A stretch of 58,066 nt of DNA from Geobacillus icigianus (GTDB taxonomy: Bacteria > Bacillota > Bacilli > Bacillales > Anoxybacillaceae): NCBI RefSeq assembly GCF_000750005.1, contig NZ_JPYA01000019.1:1-58066 (forward strand), read 5' to 3'. Made by a program: the position numbers and the translations under genes. Position 1 is the stretch's first letter. Each line of letters begins with the position of its first letter. The notes under the pieces were generated by a model that ran no database searches, was not told the origin of the DNA, and worked only from the letters and a program-made list of their open reading frames with translations. Below are positions 1 to 34,308 of this stretch, piece by piece.

Positions 1-104
1 AAACCGCTGATTCCTTTCATCAATGGGGAACGTGTAAAAAGCAGGACCGATGCAACAAGGTTTTTCTAATTGAAAAATGAAATGGTAAAGCCATATCCAG
101 CCCT

Positions 105-818
105 CTATGTCCGTCGCTTTTCTTTTTCCTGACGGTAAAACTCATGAAACATTTTCATCAAGGCCCGCTTTTCGATGCGCGAAACGTAGCTTCTTGAGAT
201 GCCGAGCTCTTTGGCGATTTCCCGCTGCGTTTTCTCGCGCTGGCGGCCGAGGCCAAACCGGCTGATGATCACTTCTTTTTCGCGCTCATCGAGCACCTCG
301 ATATATTTTTTCACCTGTTCGATCTCCATGTTCAGCTGAATTTCGTCGGCAATATCTTGGCCTTCGGACTTTAAAATATCAAGCAGGCTGATTTCGTTTC
401 CTTCCTTGTCCTGGCCGATCGGTTCATGCAGTGAGACATCTTTGCGTGTTTTTTTCAGCGAGCGCAAGTGCATAAGGATTTCATTTTCGATGCAGCGGGC
501 AGCGTACGTCGCCAGTTTCGTCCCTTTTCCCGGCGAATAGCTCTCAATGGCTTTAATGAGGCCGATCGTGCCAATCGAAATCAAATCGTCCACTTCTTCA
601 CCGGTATTTTCAAACTTTTTCACAATATGGGCGACAAGGCGCAAGTTATGTTCGATGAGCCGGTTGCGGGCTTGTTCGTCGCCTTTCGCCATCAGTGCCA
701 AATAGTTTTCCTCTTCTTTGGCGCTTAACGGCTGGGGAAATGCATTGTTTTTAATATACGAAACAAGAAACGTCAGCTCTTTCAGCAAAAACGCAAACAC
801 CGAAACAATGCCGGACAT
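105..818 (-). CDS. sigK: RNA polymerase sporulation sigma factor SigK, late mother cell
   Basis: This is the sigma-70 family factor that directs late mother-cell transcription (coat, cortex, mother-cell lysis). The 237-residue product begins MSGIVSVF and has a hydrophobic 20-residue pro-segment ending FLVS before YIKNNAF, where pro-SigK is cut by SpoIVFB in B. subtilis. Region 2 is visible ([19 protein letters not shown]), as is a region 4 helix-turn-helix near the C-terminus ([18 protein letters not shown]). I chose the ATG at 818 over the longer frame because GGGGGTGAG sits just before it and the pro-sequence then has the right length. The frame is continuous, so it is not split by a skin-like element as in B. 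subtilis. Identity is very secure. Confidence 0.96.
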
Positions 819-863
819 GCTCTCACCCCCGCCTGCTGTCATTGACGGAAACCGTCTATGATG

Positions 864-872
864 ATGTATATG
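864..872 (-). promoter_or_regulatory. Candidate SigE/SigK-type -10 element before sigK
   Basis: Read on the minus strand, CATATACAT lies about 45 bases before the sigK start. It resembles the CATA-based -10 elements of mother-cell sigma factors. No convincing -35 element was found at the expected spacing, so this is a weak call based on position and partial match. Confidence 0.35.
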
Positions 873-899
873 CGGGAGCGACGTTGTCCGTGTCTGGAC

Positions 900-935
900 A
901 AAAAAATAGCGCCGGCTCTTAAAACAAGCCGGCAC
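900..935 (-). terminator. Intrinsic terminator after the micropeptide operon
   Basis: On the minus strand, arms AGCCGGC and GCCGGCT flank a short A/T loop and are followed closely by a run of seven T. It lies between the last small ORF (stop at 979) and sigK, so it should isolate sigK from the upstream operon. Confidence 0.8.
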
Positions 936-978
936 TCGTGGAACACCGCTCTAGGCGCTGAACGAACCAACCGTCCGC

Positions 979-1065
979 CTAAGCCTCCGCCTCGACGCTC
1001 ACTTCCGCAGCGATGACGAGCGCGATGGACACTGTAATCACCACTGCCATGACGATGGTGAACAT
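979..1065 (-). CDS. Small hydrophobic peptide (28 aa), micropeptide operon gene 4
   Basis: Found by reading the sequence. The ATG at 1065 is preceded by AAGGAGGGAACGGGG, an excellent ribosome-binding site. The 28-residue product starts MFTIVMAVVITVSI, continues hydrophobic for about 20 residues, and ends in an acidic tail (VSVEAEA). It looks like a single membrane-spanning peptide. It is the last of four tiny ORFs on the same strand, each about 21 to 33 bases after the previous one. No homologue is recognised, so the function is unknown. A type I toxin-like or membrane-regulatory role is possible but purely inferred. Confidence comes from the ribosome-binding site and the serial arrangement. 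Confidence 0.6.
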   Translation of the reverse strand: MFTIVMAVVITVSIALVIAAEVSVEAEA

Positions 1066-1093
1066 CCCCGTTCCCTCCTTGACTCGTTTGTTT

Positions 1094-1180
1094 TTATTTT
1101 ACCAAAGGAAACGAGGAACGCTTGCGCCACAGTTTGAACAATTGGTGAAATTCGACCGTCAACAACAGCACACGCAGCAT
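1094..1180 (-). CDS. Small basic peptide (28 aa), micropeptide operon gene 3
   Basis: The ATG at 1180 follows GAGGAGGGACGCGC, again a near-perfect ribosome-binding site. The 28-residue product begins MLRVLLLTVEFHQLFKLWRK and has five further hydrophobic or basic residues before TAA. Such a peptide could form a short amphipathic helix. It lies 28 bases upstream of the next small ORF and 20 bases downstream of the preceding one. No family is recognised. A chance origin is possible at this length, but four consecutive ORFs each with a strong Shine-Dalgarno sequence argue for translation. Confidence 0.5.
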   Translation of the reverse strand: MLRVLLLTVEFHQLFKLWRKRSSFPLVK

Positions 1181-1200
1181 GCGCGTCCCTCCTCGCCGAG

Positions 1201-1260
1201 TCAAGTCGAATCGCCCGTCCGTTCAAGCCACATCATCAACCATCCTCGTGCCATCAGCAT
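1201..1260 (-). CDS. Very small peptide (19 aa), micropeptide operon gene 2
   Basis: The ATG at 1260 follows AGGGGA with eight bases of spacing. The product, MLMARGWLMMWLERTGDST, is 19 residues with a Met/Trp/Leu-rich first two thirds. It sits between the YrzI-family ORF and the 28-residue basic peptide on the same strand. No family is recognised. It is the weakest of the four ORFs because of its length, although spacing and ribosome-binding site fit the pattern of the other three. Confidence 0.4.
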   Translation of the reverse strand: MLMARGWLMMWLERTGDST

Positions 1261-1288
1261 GAATCATCTCCCCTTTCCTCTGTCATTT

Positions 1289-1432
1289 TTAAAACAGCCG
1301 GTGATGGACAGAACATTTGCGGTCAAGCAGCTCCTCTTCGGCGGCACGCCGCAACCGCTCTTGTTCGATGTTGCGCCGCCGCGGGGCCTTCCGCTCGATC
1401 GTGATCGTCACAAAAAACAAATGGATCGTCAT
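1289..1432 (-). CDS. yrzI: YrzI family small protein (47 aa), micropeptide operon gene 1
   Basis: The 47-residue product begins MTIHLFFVTITIERK, matching the start typical of the small YrzI family (MTxxLFFxTITI). A highly charged basic/acidic stretch follows, then a Cys-containing tail. The start is fixed by AAAGGGGGGAGGAAG directly before ATG. In B. subtilis, yrzI also lies beside the mccB-yrhC end of the cysteine operon, so synteny supports the call. From memory and unverified, B. subtilis yrzI belongs to an operon of several tiny peptides connected with the small RNA RoxS, whose C-rich loops bind G-rich ribosome-binding sites. The G-rich site here would suit that. The biochemical role is unknown. 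Confidence 0.8.
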   Translation of the reverse strand: MTIHLFFVTITIERKAPRRRNIEQERLRRAAEEELLDRKCSVHHRLF

Positions 1433-1453
1433 CTTCCTCCCCCCTTTCGAAAC

Positions 1454-1484
1454 AAAAAGCCGCAGAAGGAAAACGCCTCTGCGG
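1454..1484 (-). terminator. Second of two tandem terminators before yrzI
   Basis: On the minus strand, CCGCAGA and TCTGCGG arms enclose a T-rich loop and are followed by CTTTTTG. It shares its arm sequence with the hairpin immediately upstream (1502-1533), so the pair looks like a duplicated terminator. It lies 22 bases before the yrzI start codon. Confidence 0.7.
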
Positions 1485-1494
1485 CCTTGCCAAG

Positions 1495-1533
1495 CAAAAA
1501 ACCGCAGAAAGCGAGACTACTCTCCTTCTGCGG
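1495..1533 (-). terminator. First of two tandem terminators in the yrzI leader
   Basis: On the minus strand, CCGCAGAA pairs with TTCTGCGG around an inner GAGA/TCTC stem and is followed by a run of six T. It lies about 140 bases downstream of a strong SigA promoter and is entered by a 13-codon micro-ORF, which makes it look like an attenuator rather than a simple operon end. Confidence 0.75.
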
Positions 1534-1558
1534 CCCGATGGCTGTTGTTCGTGGTCAT
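1517..1558 (-). CDS. Possible 13-codon leader ORF running into the terminator arm
   Basis: The ATG at 1558 opens a 13-codon frame, MTTNNSHRAAEGE, whose TAG lies in the loop region of the first terminator hairpin. Its last codons cover the whole 5' arm. The ribosome-binding site is weak (GGGA ten bases upstream), but the frame starts six bases after the stop of the preceding small ORF, so translational coupling is possible. A translating ribosome here would be expected to prevent hairpin formation. This is inference from geometry only. Confidence 0.3.
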   Translation of the reverse strand: MTTNNSHRAAEGE

Positions 1559-1564
1559 GGTGCG

Positions 1565-1642
1565 TCATTCCCGGTCAGCGGAAGGTCGAATAGCCTTTAG
1601 TTGGCAAGCATCGAGCGGTGTCGTCCACATCGTCATGATCAT
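1565..1642 (-). CDS. Possible 25-codon leader peptide
   Basis: The ATG at 1642 is preceded by AAGGGAGG with nine bases of spacing and opens a 25-codon frame beginning MIMTMWTTPLDACQLK. It is the first ORF after the strong promoter at 1682-1710. No homologue is recognised. It could be a true small protein, a leader peptide controlling the terminators behind it, or a chance frame in a small RNA. The good ribosome-binding site favours translation. Confidence 0.4.
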   Translation of the reverse strand: MIMTMWTTPLDACQLKAIRPSADRE

Positions 1643-1681
1643 CGTCTTCGACCTCCCTTCGGAAATGACGTTACGAAGGTA

Positions 1682-1710
1682 ATTATATCCAAAATCAGTT
1701 CCGTTGTAAA
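1682..1710 (-). promoter_or_regulatory. Strong SigA promoter of the yrzI leader
   Basis: On the minus strand the sequence reads TTTACA, 17 bases, TATAAT. This is one mismatch from consensus at ideal spacing. Transcription would begin near 1675 and run through the leader ORFs to the tandem terminators. Confidence 0.8.
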
Positions 1711-1778
1711 CCATTCTTTTGAAAAATAAGACAACATCCCTGCTTTCGGTTCGTCTCTCAATGACGAAGTTGTTCGGC

Positions 1779-1887
1779 TTTTTGTGAAAATGCCGGACTG
1801 GCGCGAATTTCCATCCCCGGGTGGATGGAAAAACATTTCTGTGAAAATGATGAACTAGCATGGATTTCCATCCCTAGATGGAGAGCA
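1779..1887. repeat. Two diverged tandem copies of a 57-base unit, each with a dyad
   Basis: TTTTTGTGAAAATG at 1779 and TTTCTGTGAAAATG at 1836 are 57 bases apart. The same 57-base offset recurs for ATTTCCATCC (1807 and 1864). Copy one contains the dyad TTCCATCC-6-GGATGGAA (1809-1830). Copy two contains TCCATC-4-GATGGA (1867-1882). The block lies downstream of yrhC and 70 to 180 bases upstream of the yrzI leader promoter. Nothing else was recognised in this gene-free stretch. Confidence 0.75.
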
Positions 1888-1977
1888 GATCGCGCTGCCC
1901 ATGGAACTTTCCGCCCCCTCTCCGCGCTTTACGCTTCCGCCGCGGATCCCGGTAGACGGGCTTTTGAACAAGTCCTT

Positions 1978-2226
1978 TCACGATTCAAACGGATTGTCTT
2001 GTTCCTCGAGCTGATGGCGATAGCGGGCGGCGCGGCGCGAGCAATACAATGCCGCGGCCAAACAGCCGGCGACAGCCAGCAAAGCGAACGGTTTGTCCGC
2101 CGCCGCCAGCGCGCCCGGGATGATCGTACCTAAATAGAGAAACGCGCCAAGCGCGAACAAAACTAAGCTGTACATCGTGAAATCGCCCGCTTTCGCACGC
2201 AGCTCGTTCCGTTGTCGTTCAGTCAC
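1978..2226 (-). CDS. yrhC: YrhC-like small membrane protein
   Basis: This 82-residue protein (MTERQRNELRAK) has two hydrophobic segments, roughly residues 19-42 and 45-62, followed by an Arg-rich segment, so it is probably a two-span membrane protein. It starts with GTG at 2226, supported by AGGAGG eight bases upstream. It directly follows mccB on the same strand, as yrhC does in B. subtilis, where it is the last gene of the yrrT operon. Its biochemical function is unknown. The name rests on position and general character rather than on a conserved motif. Confidence 0.8.
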   Translation of the reverse strand: MTERQRNELRAKAGDFTMYSLVLFALGAFLYLGTIIPGALAAADKPFALLAVAGCLAAALYCSRRAARYRHQLEEQDNPFES

Positions 2227-5095: not shown

Positions 5096-5743
5096 TCAGT
5101 CGATTTGTTTTACCGCCTCCATCAGCCAGACGAACGCGTTTTGCTGGGTAAAGGAAGCGGAAAAGCCGTGGGTGGCAAACAGCGCGGCCAATACGTCGAG
5201 CGTCGTATAATATTCGCGCTCCAGATCGTCGGCCAAATCGTGGAACCCGCGCGCCCGCGCCGCTTCAACCGCTCGGCGGAACGCGTCTTTATCACGAAAC
5301 GCTGTGTCGGCAAACACTATTTTACCACCAGGGCGGAGCAGTTGGCTATATTTGGCGATGGCCTCTCCTTTTTCCGCATCGGTCAAATGATGAAAAGCAT
5401 ACGTGCTCGCCACCGTGTCGATCGGCTCCGACGGCAGCGGAAAACGCAAAAAGTCGCCGTCCATAATGACGGCCCGACCGCCGAGTTTTTCCAACGCTTT
5501 TTTGCGCATCGGCGCTGACGGCTCAATGCCGTACACCGTTTTGCCGCGTTCGAGCAGCTTTTTCGTCAAATTGCCGGTGCCGACGCCAAATTCGAGCACT
5601 ACTTGGCCCGCTTTGTCGGCGACCGCGTCCAAAATGCGGCCGTAGCCGGCAAACACATCGCGATATTGTTCATCATGGCCTTCCACCGATTGGTCGTACG
5701 ACTCAGCCCATTGTTCGAATAAATCAAGAAATTCTCTACCCAT
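5096..5743 (-). CDS. yrrT: YrrT, class I SAM-dependent methyltransferase
   Basis: This is a methyltransferase with motif [14 protein letters not shown] (residues about 49-61) and a post-motif acidic residue in VYGIEPS, so it should bind SAM and yield SAH. Its substrate is unknown. The 215-residue start [19 protein letters not shown] is chosen because GGAG lies nine bases before the ATG at 5743; an in-frame ATG five codons earlier lacks a site. It is the first gene of the yrrT-mtnN-mccA-mccB-yrhC operon, consistent with converting SAM to SAH at the head of the cysteine-forming path. Confidence 0.92.
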
Positions 5744-18077: not shown

Positions 18078-18335
18078 AAAAAAACTCCCATCCCCTGCAG
18101 GGACGAGAGTTGTGCTCGCGGTACCACCCTGTTTATGGGCGAAAAACGCCCATCACCTCTTTGGCCGTAACGCAGCCTTGCGTCAGGTTTTGCCTGCGCT
18201 CCGGATTAGCCTTCTGTTGCCCTTCATCTGGAATTTCTTTCAGCCGCGGAAATTCCTCTCTGTGCGCGAGCCCGCGCGTTAAGATGGACTGCAACATACT
18301 CGATCCGTCATCGCGTTATGTATTCGCTTTTACAT
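18078..18335 (-). promoter_or_regulatory. T-box riboswitch of alaS
   Basis: The minus strand carries the T-box sequence GGGTGGTACCGCG (18117-18129). The terminator AACTCTCGTCCC...GGGGATGGGAGTT with a T-run follows at 18078-18115. Upstream is a stem I with the typical distal loop region (AGAGAGGAATTTCC). The best specifier codon is GCT at 18208-18210, in the context AAGGCTAATC. This is an Ala codon followed by A, as expected for alaS. The leader should read tRNA-Ala charging and control transcription antitermination. Confidence 0.93.
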
Positions 18336-30675: not shown

Positions 30676-30870
30676 ACTAGTCCCAATCGTGCCGTCGCTG
30701 CCTTCGTTTTGAACCCGCTCTCCCATAGGTGGGTGCCCTGTTCCAAGGTTTGCGCTTCCCCTGTGACGAAGGGGCGTGCACGCCGCTTGGAAACCCCGGA
30801 CTCCCGGATATTGACTGTTCGGTCAAAACGATCGGTGATGCGACGAACACATTAGGACGGGTGGTTGATT
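30676..30870 (-). ncRNA. ssrS: 6S RNA
   Basis: The aspS to tcdA gap on the minus strand holds the hallmarks of 6S RNA. The 3' half has GGCACCCACCT and GGGTTCAA, which are strongly conserved. A closing stem forms between GTCCTAAT-GTGTTCGTCGC near the 5' end and GCGACGGCAC-GATTGGGAC near the 3' end, allowing G-U pairs. A promoter lies directly upstream. 6S RNA mimics an open promoter and sequesters SigA-RNA polymerase in stationary phase. B. subtilis has one of its two 6S RNAs at the same aspS-yrvM position. Ends are estimated to within about ten bases. Confidence 0.88.
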
Positions 30871-34035: not shown

Positions 34036-34308
34036 TAAAAACGCCCTGATCCCCTTGATAGGGACGAGAGCGTCATTCCCGCGGTGCCACCCTAATTGAA
34101 GCCATTCAGCTTCCGCTTGTCGCCGCTAACGCCAGGCGCGCGTTCCCTTTTACTGACGCCACGCGCGTTCAAAGGGAAACCTACGGAGTGTCTTTCGCTA
34201 AGCCATCATGGAGAAACGCTTCCAGCCTAAGGCGTTTCCTCTCTGGCCATGTGGGTCTTACCTACTTCTCTCCATCATCGGTTGTTCACTATCGCCCATC
34301 TGAATCGT
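34036..34308 (-). promoter_or_regulatory. T-box riboswitch of hisS-aspS
   Basis: The minus strand has the T-box sequence GGGTGGCACCGCG (34080-34092). A terminator stem (GACGCTCTCGTCCC with GGGGATCAGGGCGTTTTT) lies at 34036-34075. Stem I has AGAGAGGAAACGCC and the matching GGAAGCGTTTCTCC. The specifier region reads AAAGACACTCC (complement of 34188-34192 is GACAC), in which GAC (Asp) and CAC (His) overlap. GAC is followed by A, the usual context, while CAC is followed by T. The operon encodes both enzymes, so either or both tRNAs could be read. Confidence 0.92.

Follow-up and report, generated by a model that had tools for sequence, protein, structure and literature searches.

The operon that encodes YrzI and three further micropeptides (P2, P3 and P4) in Geobacillus icigianus is probably controlled by a transcription attenuator that senses the ribosome, similar in kind to those of bmrBCD and vmlR, and would be induced when translation is blocked. 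This reading is drawn from comparison of related leader sequences and from modeled RNA folding. The whole stretch of DNA analyzed (58,066 nt) is called the window, and all positions refer to it. The original prediction was right about the micropeptide genes but started the feature too late, since it missed the upstream half at 1433-1710 on the minus strand, which contains a promoter-like site, a fifth ORF (P0) and two tandem terminators.

All four ORFs downstream of the leader were confirmed on the minus strand at the positions and lengths predicted: YrzI (1432-1289, 47 aa), P2 (1260-1201, 19 aa, MLMARGWLMMWLERTGDST), P3 (1180-1094, 28 aa, MLRVLLLTVEFHQLFKLWRKRSSFPLVK, basic) and P4 (1065-979, 28 aa, MFTIVMAVVITVSIALVIAAEVSVEAEA, a single hydrophobic span with an acidic tail). 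The gaps between them, expected at 20 to 33 nt, agreed in order of size and measured 28, 20 and 28 nt. Strong ribosome-binding sites and an intrinsic terminator at the end of the run had also been foreseen; the predicted Shine-Dalgarno (SD) duplexes of YrzI, P2, P3 and P4 were -12.1, -9.1, -12.5 and -12.3 kcal/mol, respectively, and a hairpin with an 11-pair stem followed by a T-run was found at 936-908 (minus). Terminator-like sites between 600 and 2600 numbered 8 compared to 2.9 expected from shuffled sequences. Assignment of the first ORF to the YrzI family was supported by Pfam PF09501 (38.9 bits, gathering cut-off 23), whereas the score with the stricter NCBIfam model TIGR02413 (27.5 bits) fell below its curated cut-off of 47.05. 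YrhC, recognized by its PF14143 match, lies upstream of the operon, with mccB/mccA-like ORFs (recognized by eye) beyond it, and on the other flank is a sigma factor (PF04542/PF04545) that we take to be SigK. Elsewhere in the window, two T-box leaders and a 6S RNA were seen at 34057-34287, 18096-18320 and 30676-30861 (minus).

Comparison within the genus indicates that YrzI, P2, P3 and P4 are real and are under codon-level purifying selection. The region, a YrzI-headed run beside YrhC, was matched in all 14 genus genomes, its own included, which goes beyond chance. YrzI and P0 were each present in 12 of the 14 and P2 in 13, and P4 was found in all 14 after a closer look added G002 and G005 to an initial 12. 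P3 was found in eight genomes by a strict pattern, with a diverged or differently started P3 in four more (L229, L230, L231 and G013). In this comparison G005 had neither a leader nor a YrzI start, and in G006 P4 was the sole operon ORF found, with no leader. The check on codon-level conservation that had been proposed gave pN/pS values of 0.23 for YrzI (11 unique sequences), 0.43 for P2 (10), 0.23 for P3 (7) and 0.19 for P4 (9), which are uncorrected genus-level point estimates without a significance test. Third codon positions accounted for 354 of the 531 differences in P4. The two other frames of YrzI and P4 gave 1.58-2.03; the contrast between frames was weaker for P3 and P2 because the +1 frame of P3 gave 0.49 and the +2 frame of P2 gave 0.75.

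Beyond the genus, 193 of the order's 397 genomes had a PF09501 match (E <= 0.001), and an ORF of 16-22 aa, often ending in KDS or KDT, followed YrzI in other genera. Loose patterns applied to 80 named loci returned a P2-like ORF in 70, a P3-like ORF in 47 and a P4-like ORF in 35, counts that err in both directions (the P3 of L112 was wrong, and P4 was missed at L093 although its genome, G004, does carry it). Two to four tandem YrzI copies occurred in one operon at L152, L137, L144 and L100. The genome of the window has a second yrzI locus (L016, G000:C152; minus strand, YrzI match at 5470-5595), which likewise has a leader ORF and hairpins resembling terminators. The YrzI of this locus contains an in-frame stop, and an intact counterpart is present in the genus member G007.

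The leader begins with a promoter-like site at 1710-1682 (minus; TTTACA at 1710-1705, a 17-nt spacer and TATAAT at 1687-1682), which matches the consensus at 11 of 12 positions and places the predicted transcription start at about 1676. One site of that quality was found in 2 kb and 1.2 were expected from shuffles, so the promoter call rests on the recurrence of TTTAC...GGATATAATTACC ahead of P0 at related loci. In the window (1681-1670) and in many other leaders, the predicted start is overlapped by a short inverted repeat, TTAC-N3/4-GTAA, which was noted by eye and could act as an operator or fold into a 5' hairpin. Reading downstream on the minus strand, the 5' arm of an outer stem (1670-1661, CGUCAUUUCC) pairs with 1572-1563 in the minimum free energy fold and is followed by the P0 SD region (1657-1647, GGGAGGUCGAA) and by P0 itself (1642-1565, 25 codons, MIMTMWTTPLDACQLKAIRPSADRE), with a predicted SD duplex of -13.7 kcal/mol. 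The segment that we call X (1595-1578, GGCUAUUCGACCUUCCGC) includes the anti-SD (1590-1580), which would sequester the P0 SD in an anti-antiterminator stem, and is also the putative antiterminator strand. Terminator T1 (1536-1496) is a hairpin of about -23 kcal/mol (-22.8 to -23.1) with a loop, GAGUAGUC, complementary to X, followed by a U-run; terminator T2 (1486-1454; -19.8 kcal/mol) also precedes a U-run and has arms cross-complementary to those of T1. The locus thus has a leader ORF with a predicted ribosome-binding site upstream of intrinsic terminators, the arrangement of a bmrB-kind attenuator. Rfam gave no match at 1433-1710, and a laxer search of window positions 1-2000 and of one subtilis-group locus returned MIR7510 alone (E 0.38), far under the cut-off.

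To judge the pairings, 82 leaders were compared, these being the 112 found minus those more than 90% similar. Matched arms were set against arms permuted among leaders, and the comparison indicates that X can pair either with the P0 SD or with the 5' half of T1 and that both pairings covary between lineages. The outer stem, between the 5' untranslated arm and the 3' end of the ORF, averaged -9.53 kcal/mol when matched and -6.49 when permuted (sd 0.25), and the inner stem, between the SD and X, averaged -12.84 and -11.74 (sd 0.17), respectively; none of 5000 permutations equaled the matched value in either case. The matched pairing was better than the median swap in 67 of 82 leaders for the outer stem and in 51 of 82 for the inner stem. 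The effect of the inner stem per locus is uneven and modest; among 28 leaders with unusual SD flanks, four alone beat every common-type ORF. The anti-SD tends to change where the SD flank changes, as seen in GGCTGAA/TTCAGCC of subtilis- and pumilus-type loci, GGTTGAAC/GTTCAACC of L179 and GGCATT/TGCC of L100, L101 and L103. RNAalifold on the 35 leaders used for a covariance model gave seven pairs, none with changes on both sides, because that set had been chosen for the common anti-SD TTCGACC alone; permutation tests over all SD classes were used in its place.

The common anti-SD, TTCGACC, is present in 59 of the 82 leaders and falls in all three P0 reading frames (33, 17 and 9 leaders), being read as I-R-P, S-T or F-D depending on the lineage. 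Read from the ATG nearest the SD, the frame stayed open across the anti-SD in 82 of 82 leaders, compared to 32 of 164 for the other two frames, in leaders picked without a condition on ORF length and with corrected rules for the start codon and the anti-SD. Under earlier picking rules, which mis-picked some sites, the same leaders gave 66 of 82 and 27 of 164. A still earlier set, selected by ORF length (n = 90; 97 picks minus seven that had no promoter match or were YrzI repeats), kept at least one wrong pick, the second ORF of L163. At the genus level P0 had a pN/pS of 1.37 (7 unique sequences). Taken together, the use of all three frames, the open frame in every leader and this ratio suggest that the RNA and an open frame are kept, and not the peptide. 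The idea that P0 encodes a conserved peptide, whether functional or causing arrest, was therefore dropped, its apparent IRPS and HST..EWIA motifs being RNA arms read in different frames.

Pairing of X with T1 was assessed in 68 of the 82 leaders; the other 14, which include both retained pumilus-group leaders, had no needed anchor or no T1. Pairing between the T1 loop and the bases at and just before the anti-SD averaged -7.21 kcal/mol when matched and -4.85 when permuted (sd 0.24), and pairing between X and the T1 5' half averaged -14.52 and -11.23 (sd 0.29), respectively (0/5000 in both). The loop pairs differ between lineages, being CTATTC/GAGTAG in the window, TCATTC/GAATGA in L102, L104 and L116, TCTATTC/GAATAGA in L132 and L142, CACATTC/GAGTGTG in L151 and CGTTCA/TGAACG in L179. 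For the T1 5' half, 60 of 68 leaders had a matched partner that outdid the median swap, and in the window one of 67 swapped partners was as good; there the X:T1 duplex was -21.8 kcal/mol compared to -23.1 for the T1 hairpin. In the four subtilis-group loci (L175, L185, L192 and L193, grouped by eye) the T1-loop pairing was weak (-3.1 to -5.4 kcal/mol; 20 to 60 of 67 swaps as good), although X paired strongly with the 5' half of T1 (0 to 3 of 67). All four covariation tests gave 0/2000 after thinning to a similarity of at most 0.80, 0.70 or 0.65, the last leaving 28 leaders (21 for X:T1), and relatedness is modeled in these tests in part, not fully.

By script, 72 of the 82 leaders had two or three terminators in tandem ahead of YrzI, nine had one and one had none. 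The arm types of T1 and T2 agreed within loci (42 C/C, 13 T/T, 10 T/C and 1 C/T; Fisher p 6e-7, with kinship left in). Since the arms of the two terminators are mutually complementary, one event would be able to disable both.

The influence of the ribosome was modeled by partition-function folding of transcripts that end before the T1 3' arm, with at least five expected X:T1 pairs as the criterion. Pairing was predicted in 67 of 68 loci when a ribosome was held at the P0 start, the sole exception being L192 of the subtilis group, compared to 12 of 68 with no ribosome and 13 of 68 with the ribosome at the stop. In the window, the expected X:T1 pairs were 14.6, 0.0 and 0.2, respectively. When T1 halves were swapped among loci in the start-stalled state, 37, 41 and 42 of the 68 still reached five pairs, with a mean of 5.6-6.6 pairs compared to 10.6 for matched halves; part of the pairing is thus generic, between G-rich and C-rich strands. 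With T1 completed, the antiterminator survived at equilibrium in four of 68 loci, the window not among them, where the complete leader folded with both terminators formed and without the antiterminator. The model therefore needs kinetic trapping or polymerase pausing. Co-transcriptional attenuators are often kinetic switches.

We propose that the leader terminates at T1 or T2 by default. X would be either held in the SD:X hairpin of P0 or covered by a ribosome that translates as far as the P0 stop, and T1 would fold. If an antibiotic or another fault held the ribosome at the P0 start, the SD would be covered and X left free to pair with the emerging T1 5' half as an antiterminator; the freed T1 3' arm could then pair with the T2 5' arm, and polymerase would read through so that the peptides are made. 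P0 would count as an open frame read by ribosomes and not as a peptide sequence. Later, the message would be shut off at P2 by the ribosome-associated endonuclease Rae1, by extension from B. subtilis. We infer the kinetics, the T1/T2 step and the inducer, and a role of the peptides in surviving translation stress would be a guess.

Two known systems of B. subtilis resemble this arrangement; published work is cited by PMC number for the excerpts on which each statement rests. The bmrBCD operon is controlled by ribosome-mediated attenuation that requires translation of bmrB (PMC4191407). There, as is predicted here, translation of a leader ORF controls an intrinsic terminator via alternative stem-loops; bmrBCD is induced by ribosome-targeting antibiotics, and a like response is predicted for the yrzI leader. 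The bmrBCD terminator lies inside the 53-aa bmrB ORF, whereas that of the yrzI leader comes after the leader ORF, which is 23-42 aa long in 81 of 82 leaders and 62 aa in one. Unlike bmrBCD, the yrzI leader usually has two terminators in series, its X would sequester the SD of its own ORF, and its output is micropeptides. In vmlR, a uORF lies inside an anti-antiterminator hairpin ahead of a terminator, and start-stalling antibiotics are discussed in connection with uORF initiation (PMC9226507). The predicted layout of the yrzI leader is similar; vmlR differs in that its uORF is a tripeptide (MIN) and in that an ABCF resistance protein is produced.

Published observations on yrzI itself are consistent with induction by blocked translation. 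A yrzI-luciferase fusion is listed as a reporter of protein-synthesis inhibition, with reference to Hutter 2004 (PMC7604286), and yrzI and bmrBCD are both upregulated in a whiA mutant (PMC10714963) and on depletion of RNase P or RNase Z (PMC10100781). Upregulation of yrzI in a yhfW mutant (PMC7317962) and in a sigW mutant (PMC3498285) says nothing either way on the attenuator. Among the matches listed in the open-licence PMC literature, no description of a yrzI attenuator was found in titles and abstract openings; part of this account may overlap with a 2025 study of B. subtilis yrzI (spyTA) in FEBS Lett.

The leader could instead be an independent small RNA with a strong double terminator, the peptides arising from constant leaky read-through and P0 being incidental. 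We consider this unlikely. It would fit a 234-nt Hfq-associated small RNA, ncr2184/ncr60, reported between yrzI and yrhG in B. subtilis (PMC3574147), a short yrzI-yrhG transcript of B. amyloliquefaciens earlier called a small RNA (PMC4634765) and the fold of the complete window leader, in which T1 and T2 are formed. It leaves unexplained the covariation of X with the T1 5' half, the frame that stays open across X in all 82 leaders and the listing of yrzI as a reporter of translation inhibition. B. licheniformis has a 301-nt 5'UTR at yrzI (PMC3871023), and we infer that this and ncr2184/ncr60 are the yrzI leader. A toxin-antitoxin peptide module, in which YrzI or P4 is toxic, another peptide is protective and the leader keeps the module silent, is a somewhat better prospect, yet still doubtful. 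P4 consists of a single hydrophobic span with its tail, an in-frame stop interrupts one YrzI paralogue of the genome, and B. subtilis yrzI is named spyTA in a 2025 title in the reference list of PMC12320835; the module is compatible with the attenuator and does not exclude it.

Control by RoxS/RsaE, whose C-rich stretches would pair with the G-rich ribosome-binding sites of the operon, had been put forward in the original prediction and is now very improbable. A RoxS/RsaE homologue is encoded in the genome (60.8 bits, under the gathering score of 79), and together with the G-rich sites this resembles known RoxS/RsaE targets. Predicted duplexes were compared with those of 47 ordinary ribosome-binding sites in the window. 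Those at P2 and P4 were fairly strong (3/47 and 9/47 background sites equal or better), whereas those at YrzI, P3 and P0 were about average or weaker (22/47, 31/47 and 30/47) and here the likeness to RoxS targets ends. RoxS-specific control of YrzI was rejected, as its pairing does not rise above the background; a C-rich RNA is able to pair with SD sites in general, and such control would not explain the leader. Among the listed open-licence papers that mention yrzI, none was, by its listing, a RoxS study. The attenuator reading is preferred.

The proposed later step involves Rae1/YacP, which is encoded in the genome (PF05991, 201.1 bits, G000:C124). In B. subtilis, S1025 is described as the first Rae1 substrate to be characterized (PMC11780869), and S1026 lies upstream of yrzI (PMC3498285). 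From the order of S1025 and S1026 around B. subtilis yrzI, P2 would be the positional counterpart of S1025. The claim that three of the four peptides are undescribed would then not hold for P2. Rae1 cleaves inside the ORF, in a translation-dependent manner, at a Glu-Lys codon pair. The P2 of the subtilis-group loci carries EKDQ, and the P2 of the window reads ERTGDST, which has no Glu-Lys.

The leader layout recurs in Geobacillus, Anoxybacillus, Neobacillus, Cytobacillus, Mesobacillus, Robertmurraya, Rossellomorea, the Bacillus pumilus group and the subtilis-group loci. The four subtilis-group loci share with the window YrzI, a P0-like leader ORF, a 17-aa P2-like ORF and one or two terminator hairpins, and differ in that P3 and P4 were not seen. 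In L175, L185 and L192 an ORF of about 51 aa (PSIGHGYASMPHSFKHGYGNP..., spore-coat-like by eye) follows P2 and stands in the place of P3 and P4. With the covariance model, built on 35 leaders with that of the window included, 150 genomes from the order were covered, and 63 of them gave a hit at E <= 0.01. Thirteen regions with a leader match and absent or weak PF09501 were inspected, and two of them, in G097 (L222; leader E 0.0013) and G124 (L224; leader E 7.5e-5), had a BmrC-type context. Both leader hits are weak; tiny ORFs come next, and directly after them stands an ABC transporter gene whose product matched BmrC/YheI structures (201 and 320 bits, respectively). The SD/anti-SD pair of G124 was, by eye, GGTCACGA/TCGTGACC. 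In the other 11 regions, inspection by eye showed tiny ORFs resembling YrzI or P2; for L217 and L227 the ORF list contained P2-like ones alone. Diverged YrzI-like ORFs (e.g., MxPFHLxIITRVK...), some in tandem, were observed behind the leader at L216, L218, L219, L220, L221 and L223, in genomes with no listed PF09501.

A broader and more tentative possibility is that one ribosome-sensing leader RNA has been reused across Bacillales for several unrelated translation-stress operons, the yrzI micropeptides and BmrC-type exporters among them, whose mRNAs in B. subtilis are also the targets known for Rae1, an A-site nuclease. Transcription would be opened at the leader by stalled ribosomes, and working ribosomes would close the message via Rae1 at a downstream tiny ORF. 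If so, this would form a two-sided circuit that responds to ribosome activity, and P3 and P4 would be new families of stress micropeptides delivered by the leader.

The leader is a conserved RNA with no Rfam match here, in which a small ORF appears to be kept open while its amino acids drift. P3 and P4 add two conserved micropeptides, with an inducing condition that the model makes testable. If the attenuator operates as proposed, the Hfq-associated small RNA beside B. subtilis yrzI could be its terminated leader, and the response of yrzI to protein-synthesis inhibitors in B. subtilis would have a testable mechanism.
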